Source: an uncultured Verrucomicrobiota bacterium
GTDB lineage: Bacteria; Verrucomicrobiota; Verrucomicrobiia; Limisphaerales; JADLHS01
Direction: 5' to 3'
Assembly: GCA_903828255.1 (NCBI GenBank)
Contig: CAIKLQ010000501.1
Location: forward strand, 1 to 64,000
DNA length: 64,000 nt
The notes beneath the pieces are model-generated. The model did not search any database. It saw nothing but the letters and a program-made list of their open reading frames with translations, and was not told the origin of the DNA. Positions within the stretch are counted from its first letter, which is position 1. Each line of letters opens with the position of its first letter. Shown piece after piece: positions 3,837-22,845 of this stretch. The position numbers and the translations under genes were made by a program.

Positions 3837-3955
3837 GCGTTGCTCCTGATTAGCAAAGGCGCTGCCAAATTCCGGCCTCCGGCGAAACTAACGCGGGGGA
3901 GGTTGCTGAACGACACGCTGTTTGGAGGAAGCGAGCTTTGCACAATCCGGGGTTG

Positions 3956-4168: not shown

Positions 4169-4283
4169 TGGTTGATTTCTCCTTCTCTGAGCAGCGAGTA
4201 TGCCACCGTTGTTGCACGGCCTTTCTTCACGGCCTTTCTTCGGCATTGGCACGATTCATTCTGGAGGATACTCTTCATACCTC

Positions 4284-5153: not shown

Positions 5154-6049
5154 ACTACCTGCTTCACCTCCTTATTTACCTGAACATCTACGTCATGCTG
5201 GCGTTGAGCCTCAACCTTGTGGTTGGATATTGTGGACTGCTGACGCTCGCTCATGCCGGCTACTTCGCAATTGGTGCCTACACTTACGCTTTGGCCACTT
5301 TGAAACTCGGCATGGGATTCATCCCTGCCGGGCTATTGACAGTCGGTGTTGCAGCGATCTTGAGTCTGGCTGTTTCACTCCCATCCTGGCGATTCAAGGG
5401 AGATTTCTTCGTCATGATTTCATTGGCAGTCCAGACGCTTGTCTTCAGCCTGCTTCACAATTGGTTTAGTCCAAACGCGCAGCCGGGCACTTGGGCCAAT
5501 TTGACGAATGGACCATTCGGTTTGGCCGGCATCAGCAAGCCGGTTATCGGCAGTATCAAATTCGCTACCATTGGGAGCATTGCTGCGCTTTCGACGGTTC
5601 TGGCTCTTTCGGCTGGCATGGTGATCTGGCTTTTTGTTTCCTCGCCTTGGGGACGGCTTTTGAAGGCAATGCGGGATGATGAACTTGCGGCGCGGGGATT
5701 GGGAAAGAACACACGACTAGCCAAAGTGCAGGCGATGGCAATTGCATGCGCGTTTGCGGCACTTGCTGGCGCAATCTACTCCAGCTACGTGAGTTACATT
5801 GACCCAAGCAGCGCATCTCTTGACGAATCCATTCTCATGCTTTGCATGGTTTTGGTTGGTGGCGTCGGCAATTTTCGCGGGCCGATTGTCGGCGCATTTG
5901 TGCTTCTGGCGATCCCGGAATTGCTACGTTTTGCCCATTTGCCTGATGCGGTGGCAGCGAACATTCGGTTGTTGGCATACGGCGGGCTATTAGTGGCGAT
6001 GGCTCACTTCCGACCCAAAGGTTTGGCCGGAGAGTATCGCCTTGAATGA
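5150..6049 (+). CDS. livM: branched-chain-amino-acid-type ABC permease (LivM-like)
   Basis: This 299-residue membrane protein has the LivM signature region near its start (ALSLNLVVGYCGLLTLAHAGYF without the break, at about residues 18-40), about eight hydrophobic helices, and the EAA-like coupling loop region containing MRDDELAARGLGKNT (about 174-188), followed by VGGVGNFRGPIVGA (about 241-254). It pairs with the LivH-like protein to form the transport channel in the inner membrane. The start ATG overlaps the livH stop (ATGA). It overlaps the following fused ATPase gene in the same way, so translation is probably coupled. Substrate cannot be read from the sequence. Confidence 0.87.
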   Translation: MNYLLHLLIYLNIYVMLALSLNLVVGYCGLLTLAHAGYFAIGAYTYALATLKLGMGFIPAGLLTVGVAAILSLAVSLPSWRFKGDFFVMISLAVQTLVFSLLHNWFSPNAQPGTWANLTNGPFGLAGISKPVIGSIKFATIGSIAALSTVLALSAGMVIWLFVSSPWGRLLKAMRDDELAARGLGKNTRLAKVQAMAIACAFAALAGAIYSSYVSYIDPSSASLDESILMLCMVLVGGVGNFRGPIVGAFVLLAIPELLRFAHLPDAVAANIRLLAYGGLLVAMAHFRPKGLAGEYRLE

Positions 6050-7611
6050 CCGCAATCACGACAACCGAATCAGTCGCCCAAACGACGCCTTCCCGCGAGG
6101 AGCATCAGGATGTTCTCGCCAGCAGGAAGAACGTGTTGTGCATTCGCGATCTGCGGAAGGCATTCGGCGGACAGATCGTTTTGGACGGCGCTTCAGCCGA
6201 ACTGCGGGAGGGAGAGGTCGTGTTGTTGCGCGGCAACAACGGTTCCGGAAAGACCACGTTGCTCAACATCCTCTCGGGGAATCTCGAACCCGATGCCGGG
6301 TCAATCCATCTCCAAGTCAACGGCGCTTCTGAACATTTTCGATTTCCACGCAGGTGGTGGGAGAATGTGAACCCCTTCGACCACTTTACCCCTGAACGAG
6401 TGGCGCGAGAAGGCGTGGGAAGAACTTGGCAGGACGTGCGTCTGTTCAACACGCTTACCCTCGCGGATAACATCGCCGTTGCTTCCCCAGGTCAGGCGGG
6501 GGAAAGTCCGTTCAACGTCTTGCTGCGTTATGGCAGGGTTCGGCGGGAAGAAAAATCCAATCGGCAAACCACAACAAACCGGCTCAAGGCGCTTGGCCTC
6601 GGCGACCGTGCGGATTCATCGGCGGATCGAATTTCCTTGGGCCAGACTAAACGGGTCGCTATCGCCCGCGCCGTTCAAGCCGGCGCGCGAATCTTGTTCT
6701 TGGATGAACCTCTTGCGGGACTTGACGCTCAAGGCATTGATTCGGTGCTGGAAATCCTGCGTCAATTAGTGCGAGAGCATCGCGTCACTCTCGTAATTGT
6801 GGAACACGTCTTCAATATTCCACGAGTTCTCGATCTGGCCGATAGTGTTTGGACTCTCGAAAACGGAAAAATCACGGTTGAGTCCCCGCAATTTGTTCGC
6901 ACACAGCATTCTGATTCTCGCTCCACGGATGTAGTCGCCTGGATAGCGAAGTTGCTGGGGCCAGAAACTGGCATCACGCGGGAAGCGCTCCCCGGCGGGG
7001 CCGTCCTTTGGAAACTTCGGCGGGATAATGCGAATTGCGGCAATGCAGAGTCCCCGTTGTTTGAAATTCGCAACCTTGTTGTGAACCGGGGTAAGCGGCG
7101 AATCATCGGCAGAGATGAAACGCCGAATTCTGAGCGAGGGATTTCGTTTCAGATTGCGGAGGGAGAAACCGCAGTTCTCCAAGCTCCCAATGGTTGGGGA
7201 AAAACGACCTTGGCAGCCGCCATCGTCGGAATGATCCCCATAGCTGGCGGAGAACTGATTTTCAAGGGCGCACGCATTGAACGCCTACCCGTATGGGAGC
7301 GTAGCAATAGAGCAATTGGCCTCGTTCCGGCTCGCGATTGCCTGTTTCCGAGCTTGTCTGTAAGTGAATGTCAAAAACTTGCAGGGTGTGACGGTGGGCG
7401 ACTGAACGCCCGAATTGACCCTCATAGACCGGTAGGTTCACTGAGTGGCGGAGAACGTCAGCAGGCCGTTCTCGCAATGGCTCGGGCGACTGAATTTGGA
7501 ATTTACGACGAACCGTTGTCAGCGATAGATCAAGGTTTGGTCGAGCAAAGTTTTCGACGAGTTACCGAATTGGGGCACAAAGCAATCTTGATTCTTATTC
7601 CCCATGCGTAA
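6046..7611 (+). CDS. fused LivG-LivF double ABC ATPase
   Basis: This 521-residue protein joins two ABC ATPase domains that are normally separate LivG and LivF subunits. Domain 1 (about 30-270) has Walker A GNNGSGKTT at 63-71, a LivG-type insert, a degenerate signature (ISLGQ instead of LSGGQ) and Walker B ILFLDEP. Domain 2 (about 335-521) has Walker A NGWGKTT near 383, an intact LSGGE signature and a weak Walker B (FGIYDEP). Each composite ATP site uses Walker A of one domain and the signature of the other, so one site may be weak. It would power the LivHM channel. It overlaps livM by 4 bp and the methyltransferase gene by 8 bp. Confidence 0.87.
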   Translation: MTAITTTESVAQTTPSREEHQDVLASRKNVLCIRDLRKAFGGQIVLDGASAELREGEVVLLRGNNGSGKTTLLNILSGNLEPDAGSIHLQVNGASEHFRFPRRWWENVNPFDHFTPERVAREGVGRTWQDVRLFNTLTLADNIAVASPGQAGESPFNVLLRYGRVRREEKSNRQTTTNRLKALGLGDRADSSADRISLGQTKRVAIARAVQAGARILFLDEPLAGLDAQGIDSVLEILRQLVREHRVTLVIVEHVFNIPRVLDLADSVWTLENGKITVESPQFVRTQHSDSRSTDVVAWIAKLLGPETGITREALPGGAVLWKLRRDNANCGNAESPLFEIRNLVVNRGKRRIIGRDETPNSERGISFQIAEGETAVLQAPNGWGKTTLAAAIVGMIPIAGGELIFKGARIERLPVWERSNRAIGLVPARDCLFPSLSVSECQKLAGCDGGRLNARIDPHRPVGSLSGGERQQAVLAMARATEFGIYDEPLSAIDQGLVEQSFRRVTELGHKAILILIPHA

Positions 7612-8527
7612 TTTCATCGACAACGACTCTGGGAATGCCGTTGTGCTCAACGAGCCAGCATCGCCGCCATCGCGCCGCGCAAGCACTCGCACTCAGGCGG
7701 TGTTCCAGCGTATTGCTTTTCGCCCATTGACCTCGTTGCTACCATTTGAACCACGAATTGGGGAGCGCCCCAATAATCTGGAAATCCCCATTACGCGAGC
7801 GAGATCGTGTAAGAATTTCTTTATGCCTGAATACGAGAATTGCCGTAAGATTCCGCAACGCACAACGGAGTTGCTCGACTCCTTGGTGCGTGCAAGCGCA
7901 TCCGGCTCGAAAGCAGTTGAACTCAATCCATACTTTTCAACACCGATCGCGTGTCGCGCCGATGTGGCTCCCATTCTGCCTTCGTCGCGCTGTTTCATTG
8001 AGTTCATGTTAACTCAGAAATTGGACGGGCAGACGATTTTGGATTTTGGATCGGGCACTGGGATTCTTGCTGTGATGGCGCGAAAGCTGAGGGCAGGAGA
8101 CGTTGATGCCATAGACATCAATCCTGCTGCTGTTCTGGCTACCACTGACAATGCTCGGCGGTTTGGATTCGCAGAGGGGATCAACGTAAAACAGTCTGAT
8201 GGTTTTGCAGCAGTTAATGGCCGTTACGATTTAGTGTTGGCAAATCTGCCTATGGTTGATGCGGACTCCTACGCTGGCGTGCTGTTCGGCCTATTTGATC
8301 CACACTTCGATTTGCACAGGCATTTTTTTGCGAATCTTCACCGGCATTTGAAACCAGGTGGTAGCGCCATCATTTGTCATTCAGAATTCCAAGAAGATTG
8401 GCCTTTTACGCGCCTCGAATCGCTGGCGGGTGAAAATGGACTCACGGCAAAGCTCGTGTTCGAACAAACCGTCGAAAATGTTGAGTGGCAGTTATACCGA
8501 ATAACCCCGGCCGACCCGGCCAAATGA
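7604..8527 (+). CDS. SAM-dependent methyltransferase, PrmC/HemK-like fold
   Basis: The 307-residue protein has a class I methyltransferase core in its second half. Motif I is DFGSGTGIL at about residues 147-155, an acidic loop follows (DAIDINPAA), and motif IV is LANLPM, resembling the NPPY of enzymes that methylate planar nitrogens in Gln, RNA or DNA. A late strand includes HLKPGGSAIICH. The first 90 residues are not recognised. The ATG at 7604 lies inside the ATPase gene and overlaps its end by 8 bp. Placed between transporter ATPase and binding protein, it might modify the imported compound or an operon protein, but the substrate is unknown. Confidence 0.75.
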   Translation: MRNFIDNDSGNAVVLNEPASPPSRRASTRTQAVFQRIAFRPLTSLLPFEPRIGERPNNLEIPITRARSCKNFFMPEYENCRKIPQRTTELLDSLVRASASGSKAVELNPYFSTPIACRADVAPILPSSRCFIEFMLTQKLDGQTILDFGSGTGILAVMARKLRAGDVDAIDINPAAVLATTDNARRFGFAEGINVKQSDGFAAVNGRYDLVLANLPMVDADSYAGVLFGLFDPHFDLHRHFFANLHRHLKPGGSAIICHSEFQEDWPFTRLESLAGENGLTAKLVFEQTVENVEWQLYRITPADPAK

Positions 8528-9687
8528 AAGCGCAACAAATTATGAAAAACAAACTCCTCCTCATTGCGGTTCTTGCAGTCGGCGTGGTTCTTGGCGGATG
8601 CGAGAAGCCCGCTACGGCGCCCAACGCCGGTGCAAAGGTCAGCACCATTGAATTTTCAGCGATTCTACCGTTGACCGGGCCATTGGCGCATTTGGGAGAA
8701 AATGAACGCATTGGCATAACTCTCGCGCTTGATGACATCAAGGAACGGGGAACCCCCCATCTTGCATTCCAGTTTGAGGATTCCCAGGGCAAGGGGCCGA
8801 CAACCGTGACCGTTGCCCGCAAGCAGTGGGACGTGGATGGACGGCGTTTCTTCGTTGTAGCGACAACAGGTCCCGCGTTGGCGGCATTGCCCATGTTCCG
8901 GGATGCGGCGGAAGACAAGGTGGTCATCAGCCAGACCATGTATCCCGATGTCACCAAAGGCTACCCCTTTGCGTTCCGACTGTTTGCATCTTCGAGACAG
9001 GAGGCACAATTGCTTGCGAACCATGCGGCAGAAAGCAGTTACAAGCGCGCAGCCATACTTCACATTCAGAACGAGTGGGGAACTGAAAGCTCTTCGATTT
9101 TCCGCTCCACTTTTGAAGGGCGAGGCGGCGAAGTGGTCGGGAAAGAGACCTATACGTTTGCGGACAAAGATTATCGGCCGGTATTGCGCAAGCTTTTGTC
9201 CAACAATCCTGACGTAATCTTGCTCTACGCCTACCCGGATAATTTTCCGGCAATTCTCAAGCAACTTGCCGAGATCCGGCAGGACATCGCGGTGCTGGCC
9301 AACGCTGATTTCGCACTGCCAGGCGTCGCCAAGGAAGTTCCCGCCGAGTTTCTTGCAAAGACGGTCTTCCCCGCCCCGCGCTACTTTTACGACTCCAAGA
9401 ATGAACGAATCGCCCGCTTCAACCAACAGGTTCAAAAGAAGGGCCACACTCCGAACTTTGACATCGCCACGTTCTATGACATGACGATGATCTTGCAGGA
9501 AGCCGCCAGCAAAGCGGAAGATGCGACGCCAGGCGCTTTTCGCGCGGCGCTGATGAAGGTGTTTCCCTACGACGGCGTGACCGGTCACATGGAGATTTCG
9601 GCGGATCGGGAACTGGCCGTTGACCTTGCGCTTTCTCGTTGGGTCAATGGTGAGATCCAGGTTATTCCCAAAGCGAAGGCCAATTGA
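8524..9687 (+). CDS. Leu/Ile/Val-binding-type substrate-binding lipoprotein
   Basis: This 387-residue protein has a lipoprotein signal (MKNKLLLIAVLAVGVVLGGC within residues 7-26) with lipobox LGGC and acylated Cys26. A type I periplasmic-binding fold follows (IEFSAILPLTGPLAHLGENE at about 38-57, then alternating strands and helices such as VILLYAYPDNFP). It should capture the ligand outside the cytoplasmic membrane and deliver it to LivHM. It starts at ATG 8524, overlapping the methyltransferase stop by 4 bp; a second Met at residue 7 is possible. Closest general family: the LivK/UrtA/amide-binding group. A receptor role for the downstream kinase-like protein is also conceivable. Confidence 0.85.
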   Translation: MKAQQIMKNKLLLIAVLAVGVVLGGCEKPATAPNAGAKVSTIEFSAILPLTGPLAHLGENERIGITLALDDIKERGTPHLAFQFEDSQGKGPTTVTVARKQWDVDGRRFFVVATTGPALAALPMFRDAAEDKVVISQTMYPDVTKGYPFAFRLFASSRQEAQLLANHAAESSYKRAAILHIQNEWGTESSSIFRSTFEGRGGEVVGKETYTFADKDYRPVLRKLLSNNPDVILLYAYPDNFPAILKQLAEIRQDIAVLANADFALPGVAKEVPAEFLAKTVFPAPRYFYDSKNERIARFNQQVQKKGHTPNFDIATFYDMTMILQEAASKAEDATPGAFRAALMKVFPYDGVTGHMEISADRELAVDLALSRWVNGEIQVIPKAKAN

Positions 9688-9728
9688 CCGAAGTTCCATT
9701 CCACGCTGGCCAGTGAATTTATCCGAAG

Positions 9729-12700
9729 ATGGAAAGCACCTACGAAAACCTCTCCTTTTGGCAGACATACGCCGAGCTTTACTGGCCCGACTTGGACGTT
9801 TCGTCTTCCGTTCCCGAAGCGGAATCGCTCAGACAATTTTCGACTGGCATCGCACGGGCATTGAAGAAAAGCCAGACAGATAAGCCGCTCAAAATACTTC
9901 TCCTCGGTAGCGGTTTTGGCGGAGTCGAACTGCCGGTGCTCTATCACCTCAAGAAGGCACACAACCAGTCACTTTGCTGTGTTTTCATTGATCGGGCCAA
10001 GTCTCCGCTGCAGCTTGCCGGACACATTCTTAACAAAGGATTCGATGGCCTGCCACGCGATGCAAATCAGCTCGCGGGTAGGATTGGCGAATTTAAGAAG
10101 GCTGCTCCTGACGCACAGGATTTTATCAACGACGCATCAAACTGGAAGGATGTTCCTGATCCACATCAAGAGATCAAATGTTTGACGCCACCGGGAGGAG
10201 ATGCCTTCTATTTTTTCAGAGACGATTTGAACTGGGAGCCAAATACATTCCCTCAAACCCCGTCTGCTTGGCTAAAGCGGATGGATGATTGGTTTGACCA
10301 ACGTCAGCAATTCGATCTGATCTTCGCTGCTTTCTCCTTCTTCCATATTGATTGGTGGCGATGCGTCGCAATGGATGCCCTGTCTCGTCTCAATCCCAAC
10401 GGGCTGTTTCTCCATGCCAAGGTTGAAGGTGATGAGGGCCTATTTGAGGGGCGTATTGGGTGTTCTGGTTCAAAGAATAGCATTGCCAAAAGGGTATTTC
10501 TCGAAGGGTTCTTTTCCCATCCGGAAATCGTCGAAGAGTTTGCAAAATCACCGCGAGCCAACAGCGCGTCGCAACCTCTCGCGATTGAATCGCTCTTGGC
10601 GAAACTCCAAGATTTCGGATTGTGTGAGACTTCCGACATGGTCGGCTCTGCTGGATACACTGTGCGCCCTCACGTTGGTCTCCACACCTATCGGCGGCTA
10701 CTGCACACAAGGGGTTTCAGCACTTTCAGGAACATTGCCAAGCAACTCGACGAAGGGCAGCCCGGCAAATATGACGCAATCTGTGAGGAAGTGCTTTCAA
10801 AAGCAGAGGGAGAGTCGAAGTTGGACGTTCTTCAAATACATTTCCATTGGACAATCTGCCAACTTCAGCATCCAACGCTGCTGCAAGTCTTCCCGTTGAA
10901 GCATCGCTTCCTAAGAGCACCGAAGCCACAGTATGAGCAATCGCATGCTGGCGTGCTCCATGATTCTTACGTTACAGCTTACGAGCTTTCCAACCCGCTG
11001 CGTCTTCACAAGCGGATAGACGATGAGATCCGGCTCGCGAAGACGCTTGGGCGACGTCTTAACGTGCAAGGTCTCTTGCACGATCAGTGCCTCGCATTCG
11101 AGTTGGGTCTTTGGCCGAAACAGGGGCGAACATCTTGGAGCTATGCGGGTAACGCCCTGCGCCACGATGCCCAGATTGTTGGTAGAACATTGGAAGAAGT
11201 TGCGACGTATTTAGCGCTGTTGGATCGGCGTTCGGAAGTAATGCATCGCAATTTCAGCAACACCAAGGCTCTACTTGAAGCGATACTTCCAATCTTCAAT
11301 AAGGCGCCGGTGCTCATTTACGATCTGGAGCAGGCGGATTATTCCTTGCGCCATACCACGCGGTTGGACTATGAGGAATTCCGATTCAACATCCCTCGCT
11401 TGGGACTCGCTGAGCAACAAGCGTGGCGAATAGAGCTCGCTCACATTCGGTCTTGGCTTCAAACAACCGTCTTTGCCCAGGCCAAGGACGAGTCGAGTGC
11501 GGAACCCGACGATCCTCCAGATGTTCTCACCTCGTCCAGACTTGCAGGTGATGCGGCGAATACCTGCGCTGGCGGAGCGCTCAAACGGTTGTTTGGTTTG
11601 ATTGCAGATTCCCCAGAACGCTTGGAAAGCATCTGTTCACGACTGGCAGCATCGTTCTCCGCATCATCGGACTTACCAGAGCAAACCAAACGACAAATTG
11701 TAGATGCACTGACTCCACCGATGGCTTTTACCCTCCGATGCTTAAAGCTGATGAGCGAAGCCAAGCAGATTGTGTTTTATCCTGCTCGTTACGAACTGGA
11801 GCAAGGGGGATTCGGCAAGGACGTGATCATCTGCGTGTATTCCCGCTGTCTTTCGGAAAAGGAAGTCACGGCAGAATTTCACAAATTTGACCAGTTCTTT
11901 GATGAGATCAAAATGCATCGCTTGGAGTTGAGCAGCCGATCCGGAGGGGTTGAGGAAACCATCCAAGCGTTTAGTCATGAGATCGCCCATCAGACATCGC
12001 GGCTTTTCGGCACACGTTGGCAAGAACTAGGAAAGGTGTTTGATCTAAATAGGGATGAATCTACGGGTTCGCGGAAGGGAGTTAACGATTGGCCAAAAAG
12101 CGCGGGAAGTCTAACCGTAGCCCCCAAAGACGTAGCATGCGTCTCCAAGTGGTTGGTGTGCCCCACCCCCAATATTCTCCACTCTGCCAAGAGCTTGCTT
12201 TACTTGTGGAGCGGCTCCCCAAGCTGGGCTGCTGAATTGAATCTTAAAAAAGATGATGATGCGAAGACAATCGTGAAGAGAGTATGGGCTGTCGCCCTCG
12301 GAGCAGCGGTCGCCGTTGATATCAAGAATCGTCCAATGCCCAAGAGCGTCAAAGCCGCGCTCGATTATGATAATTTGCAGACCTGTAAACTGATTGGCGC
12401 TTGCAGTAAACCCACGGTTACAATCCGTGGCGAGCCAAGCTTCTCATGGAAAGTTGCCGACCAAACGACGGCGAATTCGGAATTATTGTCAAAAGCACAA
12501 TCCCTTTTTGTTCGTGCGTTTGTGGCAGCTTCCTTGAATACGATTGTTCACGCGGGCGCAATGCAATCCCCAGCGATAGAGGTCTGCGTTGTATGTTCAG
12601 AAACGGAGATGGTATATTCGCTCTCAAACTCATGCACTTCTGGCGATACCAAGAATTCACACGACGATGGAACGAAAGCCGTTCTATCGCTGTGTGTCCG

Positions 12701-12830
12701 GCAAATGGGGGGCGATGTTTCCAAAGTGAAGCATTTTTGCGATACGGATGGACGGTGGGTGACTGAGTTTTCCCTCCCGCGCATTGCTGTCTTGAGAGGG
12801 CAACCGGTCCAGTGGCTTTCGTCCCTTTGA
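9729..12830 (+). CDS. methyltransferase-fold / histidine-kinase-like fusion protein
   Basis: This 1033-residue protein is soluble by appearance. The N-terminal third has a Rossmann methyltransferase pattern (ILLLGSGFGGVELPVL near 57-72, VFIDRA, then FDLIFAAFSFFHIDWW and LNPNGLFLHAK). A long central region is unrecognised. The C-terminal part looks like a divergent histidine kinase: an H-box-like helix AFSHEIAHQ with His750, then a GHKL-like ending with an N-box-like ASLNTIVHAG (Asn about 936), SLSNSC and a G2-like AVLSLCVRQMGGDV. ATP-lid glycines are poor, so activity is uncertain. Receiver-like proteins encoded downstream would be natural partners. The two end domains are called from motifs only. 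Confidence 0.6.
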   Translation: MESTYENLSFWQTYAELYWPDLDVSSSVPEAESLRQFSTGIARALKKSQTDKPLKILLLGSGFGGVELPVLYHLKKAHNQSLCCVFIDRAKSPLQLAGHILNKGFDGLPRDANQLAGRIGEFKKAAPDAQDFINDASNWKDVPDPHQEIKCLTPPGGDAFYFFRDDLNWEPNTFPQTPSAWLKRMDDWFDQRQQFDLIFAAFSFFHIDWWRCVAMDALSRLNPNGLFLHAKVEGDEGLFEGRIGCSGSKNSIAKRVFLEGFFSHPEIVEEFAKSPRANSASQPLAIESLLAKLQDFGLCETSDMVGSAGYTVRPHVGLHTYRRLLHTRGFSTFRNIAKQLDEGQPGKYDAICEEVLSKAEGESKLDVLQIHFHWTICQLQHPTLLQVFPLKHRFLRAPKPQYEQSHAGVLHDSYVTAYELSNPLRLHKRIDDEIRLAKTLGRRLNVQGLLHDQCLAFELGLWPKQGRTSWSYAGNALRHDAQIVGRTLEEVATYLALLDRRSEVMHRNFSNTKALLEAILPIFNKAPVLIYDLEQADYSLRHTTRLDYEEFRFNIPRLGLAEQQAWRIELAHIRSWLQTTVFAQAKDESSAEPDDPPDVLTSSRLAGDAANTCAGGALKRLFGLIADSPERLESICSRLAASFSASSDLPEQTKRQIVDALTPPMAFTLRCLKLMSEAKQIVFYPARYELEQGGFGKDVIICVYSRCLSEKEVTAEFHKFDQFFDEIKMHRLELSSRSGGVEETIQAFSHEIAHQTSRLFGTRWQELGKVFDLNRDESTGSRKGVNDWPKSAGSLTVAPKDVACVSKWLVCPTPNILHSAKSLLYLWSGSPSWAAELNLKKDDDAKTIVKRVWAVALGAAVAVDIKNRPMPKSVKAALDYDNLQTCKLIGACSKPTVTIRGEPSFSWKVADQTTANSELLSKAQSLFVRAFVAASLNTIVHAGAMQSPAIEVCVVCSETEMVYSLSNSCTSGDTKNSHDDGTKAVLSLCVRQMGGDVSKVKHFCDTDGRWVTEFSLPRIAVLRGQPVQWLSSL

Positions 12831-12839
12831 TGCAAGATT

Positions 12840-14159
12840 ATGAAAACATGGATAATTATTGAGGACGATTCGACGATTTTGGAGATGCTCATTCGACGGG
12901 TGCGCTTATCCACCACCCATTGTCCAACTGACGATTCTGTTGTGGCCCTTTTCGCCAACAGCGATCCAACGAGTGCGTCCCATTTTCAGGAAGAGGAACT
13001 CAGCACTTTCATGTCGCAACAGAACATCAGGTTCATCCCCTGTGAAACCAGCACGAAGATTGAGGATGAGTTGAAGCTGTTGCAGGACAAACCGGCACTA
13101 ATTCTGGCCGATATGAATCTTGAGGGTATCCACAAGCACAATCACTACAAGACTCCGGGCAATGCGTTGCGCAATCTACTTTCAGGATGGGTGCAGGGCG
13201 AAAAGGACTGCGTCTTTTGCCTCTATAGCAGCCACTCAGCAAAGGACGAGGTGGTTAAGATTGTCGGGGGGAAAAGTATTCGCGCTAAGGCAATTGGTTG
13301 GTTTGATGTCTCGGAAGACAACGCGAAGCAGGCCGATAGCCTTATCAATGAAGCCGGCAGGCACTGGCAAAGGTGTCACGAGAACCCTCTGAAAGGGGTG
13401 TGGGATGACATTCGCACGAAGGATTGGTTTGCAAACAAAGATGGTCCTGTTCCCCACGAATGGACCGACATCCAGTTGACTGAATATCGTTCCGCAATCG
13501 AATCTGTGTTCGGCTTGTCATTTCCCGACGAATGGTATGCGCACGCTCAACTTAATGGATTCCACGAATCGCTTAAGGCAATGTGCGGTGCGTATTTTTA
13601 TGGTCGCATACATACTCCAAGCACGGCAATACCTGCCCGATACACATTCCGTTTAGGTAGCATTGTGCTCATTGCCGCATTGGCACACGCAAATTGTAAA
13701 AGTAAGGAACACCAGCCGCAGGAAACGCCTTTCCGAAGCTTTACTTGGAACACGCTCTGCTCCAGTGCCAAATTCACCCTTTCAACATCCCCCGAGCGCG
13801 TTCGCCTACAAGGGCAAGCGATCTATGAATTCTTTATACAGATCTTCAAAGTGGACAAGCACAATGGTCAGTTAAGGGGCGTCGAACTTCTTCCGAACGG
13901 CAGAACTGTGAAGCTCGTGTTGTCCTGGGACACAAAGAACCTCCACACCGTGATTTATGAGGAATTGCAGACCAAGTCTGGAGAATTGCATCGCGATGGC
14001 CATCCGATCGAGCCAGGATCGTGGATTCATTACTGTGATGGAACCCCTGGGACGGCTCGCTCTGCGTATGCGAAAGCACATATTGCGATGGCCTTTGAGC
14101 CGGGAAAACTTTTCGGTTGCGCTGACAATGTTCTTATCTCATCCCTTTGCGAATTATGA
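12840..14159 (+). CDS. protein with N-terminal receiver-like domain
   Basis: The first 170 residues of this 439-residue protein resemble a response-regulator receiver: an acidic triad WIIIEDDS (E8, D9, D10), a phosphoacceptor-like strand LILADMNLEG with Asp91, a CLYSSHS strand where Ser/Thr normally sits, and KAIGWFDVS where the conserved Lys region is expected. The receiver has extra loops. The C-terminal 270 residues match nothing I know; they are mixed alpha/beta and rich in aromatic residues. It starts 9 nt after the kinase-like gene and overlaps the next gene by 4 bp, which supports a phosphorelay role. Confidence 0.55.
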   Translation: MKTWIIIEDDSTILEMLIRRVRLSTTHCPTDDSVVALFANSDPTSASHFQEEELSTFMSQQNIRFIPCETSTKIEDELKLLQDKPALILADMNLEGIHKHNHYKTPGNALRNLLSGWVQGEKDCVFCLYSSHSAKDEVVKIVGGKSIRAKAIGWFDVSEDNAKQADSLINEAGRHWQRCHENPLKGVWDDIRTKDWFANKDGPVPHEWTDIQLTEYRSAIESVFGLSFPDEWYAHAQLNGFHESLKAMCGAYFYGRIHTPSTAIPARYTFRLGSIVLIAALAHANCKSKEHQPQETPFRSFTWNTLCSSAKFTLSTSPERVRLQGQAIYEFFIQIFKVDKHNGQLRGVELLPNGRTVKLVLSWDTKNLHTVIYEELQTKSGELHRDGHPIEPGSWIHYCDGTPGTARSAYAKAHIAMAFEPGKLFGCADNVLISSLCEL

Positions 14160-14920
14160 ATAAAATGGAAAATGCGATCGCCCTTGTGGTGCTGCTCGAC
14201 CCCGAGGACGATCGAGCAATAAGCTGGGCTCGCCTCTTAACAAACGTGTTTTCCGACGTCTTCGTGGTGCATGGAGTTAATTCGTGGGGCAGACTTGATG
14301 TTGTTCGAGATGAAATCAAAACACTGTTAAATAGCGAGCGACCGTCACCTTTAGAAGTGTCCGCGGTGTTTACTCACCGCAACGACGACAAGAAGGACGT
14401 CGCGAGAATCCTGGATACAATTCAAGGAGAGTATTACCGCTTTGTTTTTAGTGGACCGGGAGTTCCAGAGGGCGATTCAGCAGGCATACCAATTGTGCGG
14501 AATACCGATCCGTGGTCTCTTTCAGACCAAGATGCAAAGGAAATACATGAATTCGTTATCGGCATCCGCCAAGACCTGCCATCCTGTTGCAAGCGGGAAT
14601 CGTTTTCCTTTCTCGTCGCCCTCGCCATTTTGTGTCAAGGCTACCTAGCTGCAAGAGGTAGATTCGATCTTCTCGGCGTGAATGCCGAAAAGGCAGCCGA
14701 GTATCGGACTCCCCCTGCTGAAGCGGTTGCGAGAGTTCTCGACCGAAAGTGGTGGCTGGCCCCATTTCAAGGATTCGATCTCACAAGCGAAATCCGCAAG
14801 GAATGTAACGAGCAAAGCCTTCCTTCAGAAATCGCACGGCTTGTTGACAACTTTGGCAATGGTGATGACCAATGTGTTAGCGCAGCCTTGCGGAAAATTG
14901 ATGTGATTCTGAATCAATAG
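14156..14920 (+). CDS. uncharacterised operon protein, 254 aa
   Basis: I recognise no family. The protein begins with a Rossmann-like strand (AIALVVLLDPEDD) followed by alternating strands and helices to about residue 120, then a helical region with the segment GYLAARGRFDLLG at about 161-173. A similar GYLASKG segment occurs in the N-terminal part of the next protein, so the two may share a domain. ATG 14156 is chosen because it forms the ATGA overlap with the preceding stop; a TTG at 14147 is also in frame. The gene lies between two receiver-like proteins. Confidence 0.6.
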   Translation: MNKMENAIALVVLLDPEDDRAISWARLLTNVFSDVFVVHGVNSWGRLDVVRDEIKTLLNSERPSPLEVSAVFTHRNDDKKDVARILDTIQGEYYRFVFSGPGVPEGDSAGIPIVRNTDPWSLSDQDAKEIHEFVIGIRQDLPSCCKRESFSFLVALAILCQGYLAARGRFDLLGVNAEKAAEYRTPPAEAVARVLDRKWWLAPFQGFDLTSEIRKECNEQSLPSEIARLVDNFGNGDDQCVSAALRKIDVILNQ

Positions 14921-14928
14921 GCGACCGC

Positions 14929-17745
14929 ATGAATACCCCTGCCTCCAAAGCTTTGACTCAGGTGCTAGAGCTATTAAGCGCAGGTGTTGAAGCAACTTCC
15001 GCCTTCATCATTTCCGCAAGCGCTTCTTCACAACTACTGTGGAATCTCCCAAAGGCGGCAAATGCGCAGCGCATAATCGTCATTTGGGATGCCTCCTTAA
15101 ACTCGGCAAATGCCGCAACTACCAATCTCTCTGCGCATCTGAACCCTCTGACGGCGTCGCTCTGCGCACTAAAGGAACAAAGTGATTTAAGAATTGCAAT
15201 TCTCGACCCTAAGCCCAAGCAGCATCGAGTCGAGGGCGGGTTATATCGGACTGTGGAGTCCATCCGCCAAGACAGGATGCCGCAGCTCTATTTGGCTTCG
15301 TTGCTGGATTTCGGAGGCTATCTTCTAGATCAGTTTTGCGGGAACAATGAAAGAGTTTTAAGGAAGGCAGACGAAAAGCGGACGGAAATCCTCGAAGTGC
15401 TACAGTGTCAGATTAGAGATGCCCTGATACGAGAGAGTGGTGAAAACGACCGGCACGCAATTCAGAACATCATTGGTCCGATGGTGCTACTTGGACGCGG
15501 TTACCTCGCCAGCAAGGGCGTCGCAGAACACGCCTTGCTTCGGGTTTTTGAGGCGACTGGTTTGTTGCCAAAGGGGCTAGCTGACGGATCCCAATCAATC
15601 GGCAAAATTAATGAGGAATCGTGGGGTAAGCAACCGTTACGCCTTTTGCTGGTTGATGACCAAGCCGATTGCGGCTGGACAGATTGGGTGCGCGCGAATC
15701 TGCCGGCCTCCAATCCGGGCCTTGTCAGCTTGGAGTCGGTTGACGTGCTTGCTTCGCCAGATGCCCTGCTCGACCGTCTGCTGGTCGAATGGAGGCTAAT
15801 GGGTGACTCGAAGGACAGGAGACTTGCGCTTCAGTTGGCAGCCAGCGGCAAAGAAACATCGAGCCGCCAGCCTGTTCTTCTGCTGGATTTGCGTCTCCAC
15901 TCCATGCGGAGCGCGGAAAGCGAAGCCGACTTCATCAAGAAGCTTCTCCCGCTTTGCGAACGTTTCAAATCCGACGGAAAGGCAGCGCAATTCGCCTGGC
16001 CCGGCTTTTCAGCGCAGGAAATTCAGAGCGTTCAGCAGTGGTGTGAGCATCCCAAACGAGAAACGCCCGATCATTTGGTCGCGTTGAGCTTGCTTCCACG
16101 GCTGATTGCGCTGATGGACATGTCCCTGCCCATCATCATTTTCTCGTCCACCGGGCAGCGTTCGCTGATTGAGAAGTTCAAGCCTTACGGGAATATCATT
16201 ACGGACTTTGAGAAGCCGAGGTTTTTCGGACGCGACGCAAGGAACGTCATTGCTGAAACACATGCGAAGTTTGCAGCCAGCGTCGAACGGGCGGTTAAAT
16301 TGGCTGTTACACGACGTTTATCCCAGCAGATGACGCTCAATGTCGGCATGGCTGACGCGGCGCTGGTAGGCTGTGCATTAAAGAATGCGGGAAGCAATTC
16401 TGAATGGAGTGCCGTCTTGTATATTGACGAATCAGGTTCTGCGCGTGAATTGACGTTGGGAGGAATACTGCTGCTCCTCCCCCGGGGGATCAGTGAAAGT
16501 GAGGTTGACAAAGCGCTCCGAGCGACTCTTGAGCAGCCGAGCAGTCAGGGCGCTCCGGCTGTCGGCCCTTCTCGCTCCAAGGGATGGTGTCATAAGCCAG
16601 GCAACCTCGAATTGCTTCTTCAGCAGATAAAAAGGCGTTTTCCAACAGTCCACATTTGCTTCGTCAGCTTAAGTGCGGGAGCAGATCGAATCTTCGATGA
16701 TTTTGCGAAACACGATGAGCTTCATGATGAGCGGGTGGCGGACAATCTGTGGCGCGAGATTTTTCGCCGGTTGGTGGAACTGTCAGTCTATGCGATCCCA
16801 AGTTGTCTTGTCGAAAATGGCGCTTGCTTGAAATCCTTTTCCATTCGCGCTCCCACGCGGGTGTTGCCCGCTTCCAGCATTGGCAAAGATTCTTGGAAAC
16901 AGCGCGCGCTATTCAATCGGTGGGGAATTGATGTCACTTTGGTTGGACCAGACGCGAGTTTATGGGAGGCCGTTTCTGCAATCGAAGCATTGCCCCCTCC
17001 CAAGCAGTTCAAAGCCAGTCGTTGGAGTTGGCTGGTTAAGTTGCTTCACCAGCTCAAGCCGAGGAAGCAACCCGATTTGATGATTCGATATTTCAGCTTT
17101 GACAGTCCGCGCCCGGTGGTTGAGGAGGTCATGCGTCTGTATCGTAATATCGAGAGCCCCCCCTTGGCCGAGATTGTAAGGGGATTCTTGCTGAACTGCC
17201 ACGGACGGCCAGCCGCCGCACACATACCGATTCTACATTTTGCGGTTGATGGATTCTTGTATCAGCAGAATTTCAGGAACGTGAACCCTTTGATACGCGT
17301 CACTGGATACTATGGCAGAAACCTGGAATTGTTACTTGAATCCAATCGCTGCACGGCGAACGGGGATCGTATCGGCGCGATTCTGAGCGCATCGGCAGCG
17401 GAGTTTCACTCTGGCGATCAAATACAGGCGTTATTGTGGAAACGCATAGGGATGACGCTCAACGCGATTGATGGCCCAGACTTTTTGCGTTTCTCATACC
17501 TTGCGAACGCTGAAACGGCGATGAGTGATGACCAGGCGGTCTCGTGGCAAGGCAAAGTCATCAAAAAGGCGGGCTCGGTTGGCGGCGGGACATCTACGGG
17601 TTATTGGGGGGTAATCGAAGACCAGCGAGGAAAGCAGGTTTTCGCACCAACATGCCCTGCTGATGTTGGCGATGCTGTCACGTTCAGGCCGATGCGCGAC
17701 AAATGCCCCGGGGAGATAATCGCCGCCGACGTGAAGAAGATTTGA
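14929..17745 (+). CDS. receiver-like / DUF3800-like / cold-shock-like multidomain protein
   Basis: This 938-residue protein seems to join four parts. Residues 1-225 are unrecognised but contain GRGYLASKG. Residues about 237-430 are a receiver-like domain with insertions: LLLVDDQ (D243, D244), LLLDLRL (D320) and IIIFSST. Residues about 490-690 begin with VLYIDESGS (D500, E501), the hallmark of DUF3800, an RNase H-like family. The last 65 residues (GYWGVIEDQRGKQVF...VGDAVTF) look like a cold-shock/OB domain that binds nucleic acid. If correct, a phosphorylation-type input is tied to an RNA- or DNA-acting output. The receiver and DUF3800 calls rest on short motifs; the OB call rests on overall pattern. 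Confidence 0.55.
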   Translation: MNTPASKALTQVLELLSAGVEATSAFIISASASSQLLWNLPKAANAQRIIVIWDASLNSANAATTNLSAHLNPLTASLCALKEQSDLRIAILDPKPKQHRVEGGLYRTVESIRQDRMPQLYLASLLDFGGYLLDQFCGNNERVLRKADEKRTEILEVLQCQIRDALIRESGENDRHAIQNIIGPMVLLGRGYLASKGVAEHALLRVFEATGLLPKGLADGSQSIGKINEESWGKQPLRLLLVDDQADCGWTDWVRANLPASNPGLVSLESVDVLASPDALLDRLLVEWRLMGDSKDRRLALQLAASGKETSSRQPVLLLDLRLHSMRSAESEADFIKKLLPLCERFKSDGKAAQFAWPGFSAQEIQSVQQWCEHPKRETPDHLVALSLLPRLIALMDMSLPIIIFSSTGQRSLIEKFKPYGNIITDFEKPRFFGRDARNVIAETHAKFAASVERAVKLAVTRRLSQQMTLNVGMADAALVGCALKNAGSNSEWSAVLYIDESGSARELTLGGILLLLPRGISESEVDKALRATLEQPSSQGAPAVGPSRSKGWCHKPGNLELLLQQIKRRFPTVHICFVSLSAGADRIFDDFAKHDELHDERVADNLWREIFRRLVELSVYAIPSCLVENGACLKSFSIRAPTRVLPASSIGKDSWKQRALFNRWGIDVTLVGPDASLWEAVSAIEALPPPKQFKASRWSWLVKLLHQLKPRKQPDLMIRYFSFDSPRPVVEEVMRLYRNIESPPLAEIVRGFLLNCHGRPAAAHIPILHFAVDGFLYQQNFRNVNPLIRVTGYYGRNLELLLESNRCTANGDRIGAILSASAAEFHSGDQIQALLWKRIGMTLNAIDGPDFLRFSYLANAETAMSDDQAVSWQGKVIKKAGSVGGGTSTGYWGVIEDQRGKQVFAPTCPADVGDAVTFRPMRDKCPGEIIAADVKKI

Positions 17746-17749
17746 TCCC

Positions 17750-18274
17750 ATGCTCAACGAATGGCAGGAACGACGCAGCGAGTTCAATCACGACTGGTTG
17801 AAGAACCAGTTCTTGAACCGCCTGAACGCTTTTCTTGAGCGGTTGCGAAGCGATAATCCCGACGCGGAAAAATTGTCAAGATTCGTCCGGGAGCATCTGC
17901 CGGAATGGAGTGCGCATGAATCGGAAGCGCGCTGGCTGATTGACTCTGTGGAGAGTGAACTGTCTCCCAAGCGTTTTTTTGACCAGCCGCCATTGAACCG
18001 TTGCGACTCCAAAACCAAGGAATGGTTGCCAACGGTTGTTCATGAACTTTGGTTGAATCGGTATCCGGTTCACGAGTTGCGCGAAAAGGCCGCCGGGAAC
18101 CTGGCACAAGTGAACGTGCAATATGCGAAGCTCTCGTCAGCCTTGAAAAATTCGACTTCGGTAAGGGGCGGCGGTTTGGTAGCATTGGAGCACGAGTTTT
18201 CCAAGTTGAGCCGCTTGTGCGTCGAACTGCATGACACATTCAGCGCGTTCGACGTGAAAATCAGAAGATTATGA
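17750..18274 (+). CDS. helical operon protein, 174 aa
   Basis: The product is predicted almost entirely helical and rich in charged residues, with no signal peptide or membrane segment. It begins 4 nt after the multidomain gene and its stop overlaps the start of the AAA+ gene (ATGA). A C-terminal helix (LEHEFSKLSRLCVELHDTF) contains His residues on an amphipathic face, so a phosphotransfer or adaptor role is conceivable, but there is no HPt signature. Function unknown. Confidence 0.6.
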   Translation: MLNEWQERRSEFNHDWLKNQFLNRLNAFLERLRSDNPDAEKLSRFVREHLPEWSAHESEARWLIDSVESELSPKRFFDQPPLNRCDSKTKEWLPTVVHELWLNRYPVHELREKAAGNLAQVNVQYAKLSSALKNSTSVRGGGLVALEHEFSKLSRLCVELHDTFSAFDVKIRRL

Positions 18275-20079
18275 GTGCGTTGCCCAGAGTGCTGGTCATT
18301 GATGACGATCTTGGACGCCCCTTTAAGCGGTCAAACGGGGACGCTCCGGTATTGGAGAATCCAGATCGTGAGGCGTTTTGCATTCGCGCCGGCCTCCAGG
18401 ACGTGACGGGCGACATTCCAGCCGAGAAGATCAATGAACCCGTGGCCGAGGCGGTATTCCTTTCCGGTCTCCGGATTGATGACGGCAAAGCGGAACAAGC
18501 CGTGACGGAAACGCTGGCCGAAATTCGTCGTGGGTGGGAGAAATCGCCGCGATGGGCGCTGATACTACTCGACCTCCATTTCAAGACCGGCCCCCTCAAA
18601 TCGGGCGGTATTCCAGCCGGGCGTCCAGAGGACCGCGATCCGCAACGGTATTTTGGGCTGACGTTGCTTGAAGCCATTTCCAAGGAAGCACAGTTGCAAG
18701 GACTGCCGGTCGTAATTCTCTCCGCGATGGAGCGGGAACGAATTGAGGAGCGATTCTCCAAGGCTGCCAGTGACTTCGTAGATAAGAGCAAAATCAACCG
18801 GGACAAGCTAGGCGAACTGCTGCTTGAACACGGCCTTTTGGCTGATGATCGCATCATCGGCGTCTCTGTGCCGATGTTAACCTGTCTTCGCGATGCCAGA
18901 AGTCGGGCGCGACGTGGTAGCGACAACATCCTCCTCTTGGGAGAAAGCGGATCGGGCAAGGAATTGGTCGCGAATTACATCCACCGCCAATCACCAAACG
19001 CTTCCGGTCCATACATAACAGTCTTCGTTTCGGCGATACCCGACTCGTTGATTGAAGACGAGCTTTTCGGGCATGAGAAAGGGGCGTTTACGGACGGAAA
19101 GGCGGCGCGTTTCGGTGCCGCCAAGCTCGCAAACGGAGGAACCCTTTTCCTCGATGAATTTGCGGACATTTCGCCAGCGGTTCAAACGAAGTTATTGAGA
19201 CTTTTGGACAAGAACACTCGCGAGGTCAGAGCCATCGGGAGCGGCAAAGGGGAGAAGATCAAGTTGCAGGTTGTCATGGCCACCAACCGGATTGAATTGC
19301 TGAATGGCGATGATTTTCGAGCCGACCTTCTAGCGCGGGTTAAAGTAAACGAACCCATTTGCGTCCCCCCGCTGCGCGAGCGGAAGGAGGATATTCGCCC
19401 GCTGGCGCTACACTTCGTCCAAAAATTCGAGACGGAGTTTAAGGCGCAAAAACGCAAGATTTCAGATTCGGCCTGGTCTGCGCTTATGGACCACGATTGG
19501 CCAGACAATGTTCGCGGACTTGAGCGGGTCATTGAGCAGGCGGTTTACAAAGGAAAGGGACTCCGTGCCCTAATGCCAGAGCATTTGAGCATTACCCCGA
19601 GGGTTTCGCTCCCGGTCGTCTCGGGGCGGCGAAACAGAGCAACAAAGGAGGAGAATACGCCGCCATCCACGGGGGCCAGTCCGACCGCTGAGGCTCAGCA
19701 GAAGTCGCCGCCAAGACTGAAGGACGTAATCGCATTGCTTGAAGCGTGTGAGGTGGATGCAAACGGCACGGATGAATGGGCTGGCAAGTTGGATACATTG
19801 CAGGAGTCGTATGGCCTGTTGCTTGCCAAACTCGTGAAAGCGGCCCTGTTGAAGGAGCGCAATTTCAAAGGCGAAATCCAGCATACGCCGGCGATGAGAC
19901 TTCTCGCAGGGCGACGGTTGGCGGAAAAGGGTGAAGCATCCATTGCTTACAGCGCCATCAAGAGCCTGTTAAGTCATCACCCCCCCGCATTGGCAGAAAT
20001 ACTTTCGGACCCCATTTTGAAGCAGATTTACGAAACTGCGTGCGAAAAGCGGTCTGCCAAAAAGCCCAAGGTTTCGTGA
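18271..20079 (+). CDS. receiver-like + sigma-54-activator-type AAA+ protein (GAFTDG variant)
   Basis: Residues 1-190 are a receiver-like domain (LVIDDD at 8-13, LILLDLHF with D101, VVILSAM), with a long insert after the acidic triad. Residues about 200-440 are a bacterial enhancer-binding AAA+ domain: Walker A GESGSGKE near 224-231, ELFGHEKGAFTDG (271-276), Walker B GTLFLDEFAD, ATNR, and an R-finger region FRADLLARVKV. The loop that touches sigma-54 is normally GAFTGA, and here the second Gly is Asp. The C-terminus lacks an obvious Fis-type helix-turn-helix and instead has a helical domain of unknown type. It could be a remodelling ATPase rather than a transcription activator. Start overlaps the preceding stop. 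Confidence 0.8.
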   Translation: MSALPRVLVIDDDLGRPFKRSNGDAPVLENPDREAFCIRAGLQDVTGDIPAEKINEPVAEAVFLSGLRIDDGKAEQAVTETLAEIRRGWEKSPRWALILLDLHFKTGPLKSGGIPAGRPEDRDPQRYFGLTLLEAISKEAQLQGLPVVILSAMERERIEERFSKAASDFVDKSKINRDKLGELLLEHGLLADDRIIGVSVPMLTCLRDARSRARRGSDNILLLGESGSGKELVANYIHRQSPNASGPYITVFVSAIPDSLIEDELFGHEKGAFTDGKAARFGAAKLANGGTLFLDEFADISPAVQTKLLRLLDKNTREVRAIGSGKGEKIKLQVVMATNRIELLNGDDFRADLLARVKVNEPICVPPLRERKEDIRPLALHFVQKFETEFKAQKRKISDSAWSALMDHDWPDNVRGLERVIEQAVYKGKGLRALMPEHLSITPRVSLPVVSGRRNRATKEENTPPSTGASPTAEAQQKSPPRLKDVIALLEACEVDANGTDEWAGKLDTLQESYGLLLAKLVKAALLKERNFKGEIQHTPAMRLLAGRRLAEKGEASIAYSAIKSLLSHHPPALAEILSDPILKQIYETACEKRSAKKPKVS

Positions 20080-20130
20080 CTCCAGTTTCATATTGGCAGC
20101 GTGTCTGCCAACCGGGTTGAATGCATTTCC

Positions 20131-22845
20131 ATGAAAGCGTGTCGCGTTGAGATTGCACGCGCTTCAACAAGCGCCGAAGAGCCAGAGTGCATTACTTTGG
20201 CGTTGCAGGCTTTTTTCGGTCTTTTCACTCATGACAGCAGGATCGGGGAGTTTCCGTCGAACCTCATCCAGAAGGATGCAGAGCAAAAGCGGCTGATAGT
20301 TGTTCCTTCCACGCATGAATCCACACTGAATGCAATGATGGAGGAATTGCTGGTCCGTGCCTATGGTGAGCCCCCAAAAGCCATGCAAATTGGGGCTGGG
20401 CACACCCGGTTGATCCTTGTCCGTCTTCATAATGCATCGCCTCGATTTGAAAACCTCGCCCAAATTTACAGGAAGATAGGAATCGCCGAAGTGGTGGAAT
20501 TGGAGCAATTGCCTCTCATCTTCAAATTGGTCCACCTTGCGGGCGACAGCCAGGGCGTGCCGGAAAGCAAAGACATTACCCGTCCCTCAGAACTCCAAGA
20601 GGTGATTGAGACATCTGCCTTTCCCTCTGGAGCCGCTGAGATTATGGAGAGTCTTTTTCGCGACCCAAGTCTTTTGCACTCGACTTCAAGATTCTTGAGG
20701 AAGTCGTCTGTAACTGATGGAGGTTCGCCACAACCGAAAGATGTTTGGCCTCATCAGGGGGAAGCGCCGGTGAGATTGCTCTTCGGTGCGTTTACGGCAG
20801 GTGATGTGGGAAAGAACGAGTTCCTCCAAGCATTGCAGACTATTCGAATGGGATTTGACGAGGCTAACAGTCAGAAATGGAAACTGCAGCTCGGTGAAGT
20901 TTCAGATTGGGCGGAAAATGTCCTCACGCGCAAAACGGCATACCAACAGAACCCGCACCAGCTTGATGCTCTATCGACCTATTTATCTGGCCGCCGCATT
21001 TTGCTTATCGAAGATCAACTTCTGGAGCAGCACTGGAACGTAGCACTGCCGGTGATCTTTGGACTGAAAGGAATCCTTCCGAGGAGAGGGAAACTCAACG
21101 GCCTTGGAGGACCGATACTTTATCACGCTGAGACAGTGGATGACGCTCTGAGACGCTATGGTGAGATGATTGGCTCCTTCGACATTATCCTGTTAGACTT
21201 GTTCTCAAGCGAAGCTCGTCTCACTCGGACACGGCAATTGAAAGGCGCATTACTATCCACCATTGGGGCATCTGTTAACCGACTGGTGACTGAGTTGGAG
21301 AAAGTGCGCGACAAAAGGGCGGTCTGTCCAAATCCTTTTCCGCAACTCGTTGCGTTTTCGTATGAGGGAGGAGGAACTACGGTAAGGACGATTCTTCAGG
21401 ACTTCGGAGCGGCCGACTATTTTATCAAGGGTGCAGAGGGGGAACCGCACAAGGCCGAGTTCTATTCATCCCTGCGCAATTGTGTGATAAACGCACTGAA
21501 GCGCATGTGCATCCACGTAACCGGGCACGCAAATGTTTGCCACAAGGATAGCCGATTCAATCTATGGTTGAGACAATTCAAACCGCAACATCGCCCGCTG
21601 GTGCTCAATCTCATGAAGCACTTTCGATATTACAGTGCGCAAAGCATCGTAAAGCTATTCAATCGTTATCTTCGTGCTGAGTATCCCATAGACACCCGAG
21701 GCAAAACCTTGAGGTTGACGATCGCAAATTTGGGAATAAAGCGGGTGTCTTCCCATAAAGTATGGATTTCCTATCTAGGTCGGTCCACCAAATCGGGGCC
21801 GGCTGCGTTGTCGCTGCTATCTAAGCTGGATTGGCTGAGACCCATGTCTGTCGAGGCGGCAAAACTGATAGAAGCCGTGAAAGCGTTACCCGGGTTGACC
21901 AAGGGAAAACAAATTGGCGATTATATGCCCCAATTCAAGAGCTACGAGGAATTGTGCACGGGCTTCTCTGGAAAACTACTCGGAGGCAAGGTGACGGAGT
22001 TGATTTTGGTAGATGATGTGATCGGATCTGGTGGCCAGATTGATTCCTACCTCCGAAAATGGCTCAATCGGGATTTGCTTAAAGCGCACTGGAGGGAATT
22101 CTTGATGCGATATCTGGCCCGCAACCCGAAAAAGAAGATGGACGCCACAACCAAAGCCAAACTGTGGGAGGCATTTCAAAAAGACTGGCAAAGAGTGATA
22201 GAAAAGTTGAAGGGAGTGGCGGGGGGCAAGCGCGTTCGGATTAGCGCTGTTTTTGCCGTTGGTCCCGAGAATGCCCAACTTCGACGACGGATTCGTGCAA
22301 CGATTAACAGGTCGACGGGTTCAATGACGGGTAGCATCTCGGTGCCCATGTGCCTCAATCTTGTTCGTTCGGTGGGGGACGGCAGGAAACTTGACGACTG
22401 TCATCCAACGGAATGGGATGTGTATCCCGGACACACAAAAATGCCCGGTGCTTGTGGGGGAGAGGTTGTGCTGAACATCCATGTTATCGAGGTCAGTGCA
22501 AACTATACCCAGGCATGTGGAAAGAGCGGTATTAGTAGCCCGACCATAAAAAGGATGTTGTGGGATTATGTTGGAATAACAAATCCAAGGGCGAAGGAAT
22601 TCCGCTGTAATTTTGAACCATTCGGATGGAAGGACGGAGGAGGGCTGATTGCGACCTATGCGAACACTCCGGGCAACACTTTGCCAATCGTATGGGGTGA
22701 CCAAGGAACTAGCCCTTGGATTCCCTTGTGGCCAAGGTTCTTTAATCCGTGGGATGATGGCGGAGCAGAATCTCTCAAGTGCTGCTGTGGCAGGCGAGGC
22801 CGGCAACGCATCTGCGAAAGTGCTGCTAAAAAGTCTGTGCAATGA
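20131..22845 (+). CDS. receiver-like / phosphoribosyltransferase-like (PRTase-CE) protein
   Basis: The 904-residue product (ATG 20131; GTG 20101 is in frame) has three parts. Residues 1-285 are unrecognised. Residues about 288-450 are receiver-like (LLIEDQ, D295; IILLDLF, D356; LVAFSYEGG; DYFIKG). The C-terminal half has a phosphoribosyltransferase-like signature LILVDDVIGSGGQ (about 624-636), where two Asp bind the ribose-phosphate, followed by a strand ISAVFAVG. Near the end sits NTPGNTLPIVWG and PLWPRF, an ending I associate with the PRTase-CE family of conflict systems. It is the last gene of the operon and probably its effector. Reaction unknown; nucleotide or nucleobase cleavage is the family-based guess. 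Confidence 0.7.
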   Translation: MKACRVEIARASTSAEEPECITLALQAFFGLFTHDSRIGEFPSNLIQKDAEQKRLIVVPSTHESTLNAMMEELLVRAYGEPPKAMQIGAGHTRLILVRLHNASPRFENLAQIYRKIGIAEVVELEQLPLIFKLVHLAGDSQGVPESKDITRPSELQEVIETSAFPSGAAEIMESLFRDPSLLHSTSRFLRKSSVTDGGSPQPKDVWPHQGEAPVRLLFGAFTAGDVGKNEFLQALQTIRMGFDEANSQKWKLQLGEVSDWAENVLTRKTAYQQNPHQLDALSTYLSGRRILLIEDQLLEQHWNVALPVIFGLKGILPRRGKLNGLGGPILYHAETVDDALRRYGEMIGSFDIILLDLFSSEARLTRTRQLKGALLSTIGASVNRLVTELEKVRDKRAVCPNPFPQLVAFSYEGGGTTVRTILQDFGAADYFIKGAEGEPHKAEFYSSLRNCVINALKRMCIHVTGHANVCHKDSRFNLWLRQFKPQHRPLVLNLMKHFRYYSAQSIVKLFNRYLRAEYPIDTRGKTLRLTIANLGIKRVSSHKVWISYLGRSTKSGPAALSLLSKLDWLRPMSVEAAKLIEAVKALPGLTKGKQIGDYMPQFKSYEELCTGFSGKLLGGKVTELILVDDVIGSGGQIDSYLRKWLNRDLLKAHWREFLMRYLARNPKKKMDATTKAKLWEAFQKDWQRVIEKLKGVAGGKRVRISAVFAVGPENAQLRRRIRATINRSTGSMTGSISVPMCLNLVRSVGDGRKLDDCHPTEWDVYPGHTKMPGACGGEVVLNIHVIEVSANYTQACGKSGISSPTIKRMLWDYVGITNPRAKEFRCNFEPFGWKDGGGLIATYANTPGNTLPIVWGDQGTSPWIPLWPRFFNPWDDGGAESLKCCCGRRGRQRICESAAKKSVQ

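Follow-up and report, generated by a model that had tools for sequence, protein, structure and literature searches.

A single open reading frame of 938 amino acids, hereafter g4 (ATG start, positions 14929-17745, + strand), appears to join a genuine receiver domain to a DUF3800-like segment, and it is the ninth gene of a 12-gene same-strand operon (4200-22845) that opens with a Liv-type importer. All positions refer to the window, by which we mean the whole 64,000-nucleotide stretch of DNA that was analysed. We propose that the operon encodes a pump-coupled, multi-output phosphorelay arming effectors that target nucleic acids or nucleotides, likely a conflict or defence system on a mobile element, and we give this reading a probability of roughly 0.45. 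The alternatives weighed below are not mutually exclusive, and therefore the confidence values need not sum to one. The g4 protein consists of an N-terminal module, the receiver, the DUF3800-like putative effector, a helical part and a C-terminal beta region. Its gene lies 8 bp after the preceding gene and 4 bp before the following one, as one frame at the place given in a preliminary description of this DNA.

The receiver (15634-16233, +) covers g4 residues 236-435, where LLVDDQ, VLLLDLRL, PIIIFSST and EKP follow one another in that order, with two insertions. The preliminary description had taken VDDQ (residues 242-245) and LLLDLRL (317-323) as signs of a receiver, and this was borne out by the full residue set, by scores above shuffles and by conservation in the sole homologue found. 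The acidic pair after strand 1 is D243 D244, the phosphoacceptor Asp after strand 3 is D320 in LLLDLRL, and S406 and K429-P430 follow strands 4 and 5, respectively; all are kept in the homologue, which belongs to a locus that we call L009. The ordered five-residue set (DD, D, S/T, K-P) arose in 1 of 5000 shuffles of g4 residues 1-490, and hhalign scored g4 at 30.2 against a receiver alignment, with a maximum of 18.3 among 60 shuffles. On these motifs, g4 appears to possess every residue of the phosphorylation switch. PF00072 did not match g4, even when both insertions were cut out. The insertions, located before D320 and S406, are a likely reason for this miss, but since their removal did not bring back a match, general divergence must also contribute. 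Another protein of the operon, g6, likewise has no PF00072 match, though its family reaches 95% probability when aligned with receivers.

The search for homologues included 146 relatives, 388 genomes of the phylum and, by pattern matching, 84,980 species genomes, and it returned a single homologue of g4 (L009:2273-4558, 27% identity), which covers g4 residues 49-460. Close relatives of g4 or of its tail were found neither in the genome contigs nor in IMG/VR, plasmids or phages, and weak matches (L003-L006) were rejected as antisense or composition noise. In L009, homologues of g5, g6 and g4 are grouped together. The two g4 proteins have the N-terminal and receiver chassis in common, whereas their tails differ: the L009 protein carries a HEPN-like RNKKVH motif (RNxxxH, by eye) in place of the DUF3800-like part, in a tail that gave no Pfam match. 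Judging by sequence, the tail is thus exchangeable. The HEPN-like tail, together with the PRTase-CE domain on the sister protein g7, suggests that a receiver plus an effector is the organising principle.

DUF3800 is a predicted RNase H-type nuclease (PMC10910872). The preliminary description had placed a DUF3800 signature in g4, with D500/E501 correctly numbered (VLYIDESG is residues 496-503), and we built a DUF3800 alignment from 22 family members for comparison. The g4 segment VLYIDESG...LTLGGILL (16408-16488, +), with VLYIDESGSARELTLGGILL as residues 496-515, corresponds to strands 1 and 2 of this alignment. Both the YxDESG start and the second strand (FVLGG in the family) are present, and YIDESG...LTLGG scored 33.9-34.1, with a shuffle maximum of 20.9-25.7; none of the shuffles, whole-protein ones included, reached this score. 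The match extends over only about 22 columns, however. Residues 520-735 scored on par with shuffles and unrelated proteins (z 0.4), the motifs EfHA and Sk..LQLAD are absent beyond strand 2, and PF12686, which detects three further genes of this genome, did not match g4 either in fragments or genome-wide. Therefore, g4 is DUF3800-like at the N-terminal signature only; the signature of the preliminary description stands for the first two strands and not for the remaining motifs or the Pfam model. The tail as a member of the DUF3800 family was rejected, because the defining features were looked for and not found.

AlphaFold models of g4 made without homologues had a mean pLDDT of about 40. In these low-confidence models, the signature forms two strands and a helix and has the highest local pLDDT. 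The start of the DUF3800 fold requires two strands and then a helix, and the modelled arrangement is compatible with an RNase H core, which it fits but does not prove. Foldseek returned nothing at E < 0.001 with these models. A coincidental YIDESG match in a non-nuclease domain, for example a protein-interaction module, would agree with the shortness of the match, with the background level of the remainder and with the negative Pfam and Foldseek searches. We nevertheless consider such a coincidence rather unlikely, because the signature stood above all shuffles, because the two strands and helix with the best pLDDT fell there, and because the L009 tail bears a nuclease-type motif. As for the receiver wired to a nucleic-acid-handling module that had been proposed, the receiver is thus retained, and the nuclease part is plausible, if unproven.

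The last 66 residues of g4 (17545-17742, +) are beta-rich and cold-shock-like by eye, and an OB/cold-shock pattern had been assigned to the last 65. This assignment was not upheld, as none of four tests reached significance. PF00313 did not match, hhalign against cold-shock proteins scored below shuffles, and the profile alignment was matched by 60 of 1000 shuffles and 3 of 268 windows of unrelated proteins. Foldseek placed OB-fold proteins among the top matches of the tail at E 0.26 or worse. The low-confidence models have three strands in this region, compared with the five of an OB barrel. The name cold-shock domain was rejected for this part, the defining profile match and RNP motifs not being found.

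The operon genes mostly overlap or stand within about 40 bp of each other, and the gene 3' of the operon is in the opposite orientation. Their order is LivH, LivM, fused LivG/F, methyltransferase, binding lipoprotein and then g1-g7. The LivH-type permease (4200-5153, +; PF02653, E 1.3e-28) is 55% identical to a gene of a Nostoc plasmid, and its start codon is probably really at about 4278, as the Nostoc alignment begins at residue 29. It is followed by a LivM-type permease (5150-6049, +; PF02653, 4.3e-37; 67% identity to the Nostoc plasmid) and by a fused LivG-LivF ATPase (6046-7611, +) with two PF00005 stretches and Walker motifs in both halves, which shows 46% identity to the Nostoc plasmid versus at most 32% for other plasmids among the matches listed. 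A small PrmA/MTS-like methyltransferase (7604-8527, +; PF06325, PF05175) precedes a periplasmic binding lipoprotein of the branched-chain-amino-acid type (8485-9687, +; PF13458, 4.5e-38; lipobox LGGC), with 38% identity to the Nostoc plasmid and no comparably close plasmid relative elsewhere among the matches listed. An Rfam scan of 3000-23500 gave no match. The whole window contains three sigma-54-like sites with one mismatch, and two of them border the divergent gap 5' of the operon (3837-4277); the number of such sites over the window is at chance level, and the operon-facing site lacks the -24 GG. A sigma-54 factor gene (PF04552, PF04963) is located at 29145-30932 (−), on the same contig as g6.

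The first signalling gene, g1 (9729-12830, +), combines a methyltransferase-like N-terminus with a divergent histidine-kinase-like C-terminus, recognised from motifs by eye and from its Nostoc plasmid homologue (25% identity over 564 aa, E 2e-35). An H-box, FSHE at 748, and an N-box, SLNTIVHA near 941, were seen by eye; the Pfam kinase models HisKA and HATPase_c did not match g1, and the Nostoc homologue has no clear G-boxes. A degenerate DNA motif of g1 pointed to eight loci over the genome contigs, of which tblastn upheld only the Nostoc plasmid. The operon contains four receiver-like proteins, g2, g4, g6 and g7. The N-terminus of g2 (12840-14159, +) is receiver-like (IIEDD, LADMNLEG, YSS; hhalign 27.8, shuffle maximum 20.8), with no receiver lysine found, and the score of the receiver-like segment of g7 was equalled by 1 of 60 shuffles; both are weak candidates for receivers. 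The 257-aa protein g3 (14147-14920, +) is 27% identical over 112 aa to the third gene of the Nostoc block, and the small protein g5 (17750-18274, +), helical by eye, has a relative in L009 (26% over 132 aa, E 2e-4). A receiver and an NtrC-type AAA+ domain (PF00158, 7.4e-43) make up g6 (18271-20079, +), which is 34-35% identical to its L009 counterpart. Its loop reads GAFTDG, compared with GAFTGA in sigma-54 activators, and is missing from the L009 homologue; no HTH was found in g6 by Pfam. Finally, g7 (20101-22845, +) joins its receiver-like segment to a PRTase-CE domain (PF24390, 4.3e-24, 86 bits for a cut-off of 27; PRTase_III-A in PADLOC) whose PRPP loop is intact (VDDVIGSGG at 638). PADLOC 2023 gave no match for g1-g5, and the other PRTase-CE loci of the class that were inspected showed no receiver fusion. 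Elsewhere, at L077:3027-6326 (−), a P-loop NTPase (STAND/ORC-like by eye) is fused to PRTase-CE, which is another control mode for this domain.

Receivers that need no phosphorylation and switch in response to nucleotides or proteins, with g1 or the AAA+ protein g6 as a scaffold, would suit a g1 that is not recognisable as a kinase and a g2 that lacks the lysine, and histidine-kinase-independent receivers have already been proposed for conflict systems (PMC8195603). This explanation seems to us improbable, however, since g4 and g6 retain the full catalytic set of receiver residues, whereas pseudo-receivers lose these, and since the H-box and N-box are present in g1 by eye.

The Nostoc carneum conjugative plasmid AP018182.1 resembles the operon in carrying LivH, LivM, LivGF, the binding protein and g1 in the same order, followed by a g3 relative and two further receiver-like proteins. 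It differs in that its block holds no DUF3800-like, PRTase-CE or AAA+ protein and no obvious toxic effector, and its last protein is a receiver whose tail is predicted to be of the winged-helix (DNA-binding) type. At L032:417-9657, a radical SAM gene, LivHMGF, a TIR gene, a receiver-TIR fusion, a PAS kinase and a DUF4365 gene form one run. With genes for TIR, receiver-TIR and PAS kinase placed after a Liv operon, this run is a further, independent example of such a design.

The contig itself bears TrbC/VirB2- and TraG/TraD-type genes of the conjugative type and, from 43.9 kb on, genes for proteins matching the DruE, DpdE, DrmMI and DrmD models. The operon is therefore on a mobile-type contig shared with defence-type genes, the Druantia/DISARM/Dpd-like ones being at least 21 kb away. 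In the region 43934-62685, and also in L011, Druantia/Dpd/DISARM-like helicases and a methylase form one island with an HATPase_c_3 protein, a composition that, to our knowledge, is not standard for any single known system. ClpB-like AAA+ genes stand beside the receiver systems on both contigs (L009:5547-12844; window 856-1764 and 40198-40977), as does an activase-like radical SAM gene, which was recognised by Fer4_12 in the window and by eye in L009. A WG-repeat protein (PF14903) is encoded at 27523-29097 (−).

The Nostoc block, ending as it does in a winged-helix receiver with no toxin visible, and the transporter, which looks intact with both ATPase halves, would also fit a metabolic or stress-signalling operon, in which a nutrient would be signalled by the importer and the kinase-like protein, with the receivers regulating RNA turnover and gene expression and causing no toxicity. 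We regard this explanation as unlikely, because tails of the PRTase-CE and HEPN-like kinds typically belong to conflict effectors, because the g4 chassis was kept while its tail was exchanged, and because the system is rare and lies on a mobile-type contig.

In the phosphorelay that we favour, the Liv-type lipoprotein and importer would bind a ligand outside the cytoplasm and pass the signal to the kinase-like g1, which would in turn phosphorylate g2, g4, g6 and g7 on their receivers. A phosphate on D320 may free or activate the g4 tail, which is predicted to cut or bind nucleic acid through an RNase H-type, DUF3800-like core, and g4 would be a response regulator with an enzyme-like effector output and not a DNA-binding domain. 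The PRTase-CE effector g7 would act in parallel, the AAA+ protein g6 might remodel or license the complex, and the likely outcome would be growth arrest or death of the invaded cell. Phosphotransfer from g1, sensing by the transporter, nuclease activity of g4 and a defence role are the steps that we infer. With its receiver and probable nuclease among switch-coupled genes that follow an importer, g4 looks like an arm of a signal-triggered, possibly defensive system. The receiver residues of g4, the exchange of its tail, the g7 fusion, the Nostoc block, L032, the tight packing of the genes and the mobile and defence-type contig argue for the phosphorelay. Conversely, the lack of a Pfam kinase match in g1, the weak receivers of g2 and g7, the DUF3800 motifs missing beyond strand 2, the single g4 homologue, the Nostoc block without obvious toxin and the distance to the defence-type genes argue against it.

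Detocs (DtcA/B/C) is an anti-phage system made of a kinase, a receiver sink and a receiver-effector. By analogy, it is the nearest working model for the operon: compared by its description only, it has in common a kinase-like sensor and several receiver proteins, at least one of them fused to a toxic-type effector. The present operon differs from it in starting with a full Liv-type ABC importer plus a binding lipoprotein, and in including an NtrC-type AAA+ protein and at least two different effector fusions. The view that wiring a receiver to such an effector had not been described is thus too strong, as Detocs uses receiver-effector proteins. In addition, receiver domains independent of histidine kinases had been proposed earlier in conflict systems (PMC8195603). 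Type III retrons usually have PRTase as their effector (PMC12548924), and the PRTase-CE domain of g7 is shared with type III-A retrons and with three-gene systems of PRTase and ATPase; unlike in type III-A retrons, no reverse transcriptase was seen here and the domain is fused to a receiver-like segment. A TPR-DUF3800 protein is found beside Cas12a2 (PMC10910872). The YIDESG start and the hydrophobic LGG strand are common to DUF3800 proteins and g4, but g4 lacks the other motifs and is joined to a receiver instead of TPR or CRISPR. In the literature, we found no paper linking receiver conflict systems, DUF3800 or PRTase to a Liv importer.

Bacterial immune systems known so far respond mostly to phage signals inside the cell. 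More tentatively, we speculate that the operon is a mobile immune or competition system, in which the solute-binding ABC importer would be an extracellular danger or kin sensor and the kinase-like protein would signal to interchangeable receiver-effectors under an AAA+ regulator. As part of the same doubtful reading, these receiver-effectors would comprise the DUF3800-like nuclease, the HEPN-like RNase, PRTase-CE and possibly the TIR of L032. If this is true, a phosphorelay started by an importer would arm nuclease-type effectors in response to an outside cue, prior to infection, and receivers would serve as a socket into which toxic effectors can be plugged and exchanged, among them the PRTase-CE known from retrons.
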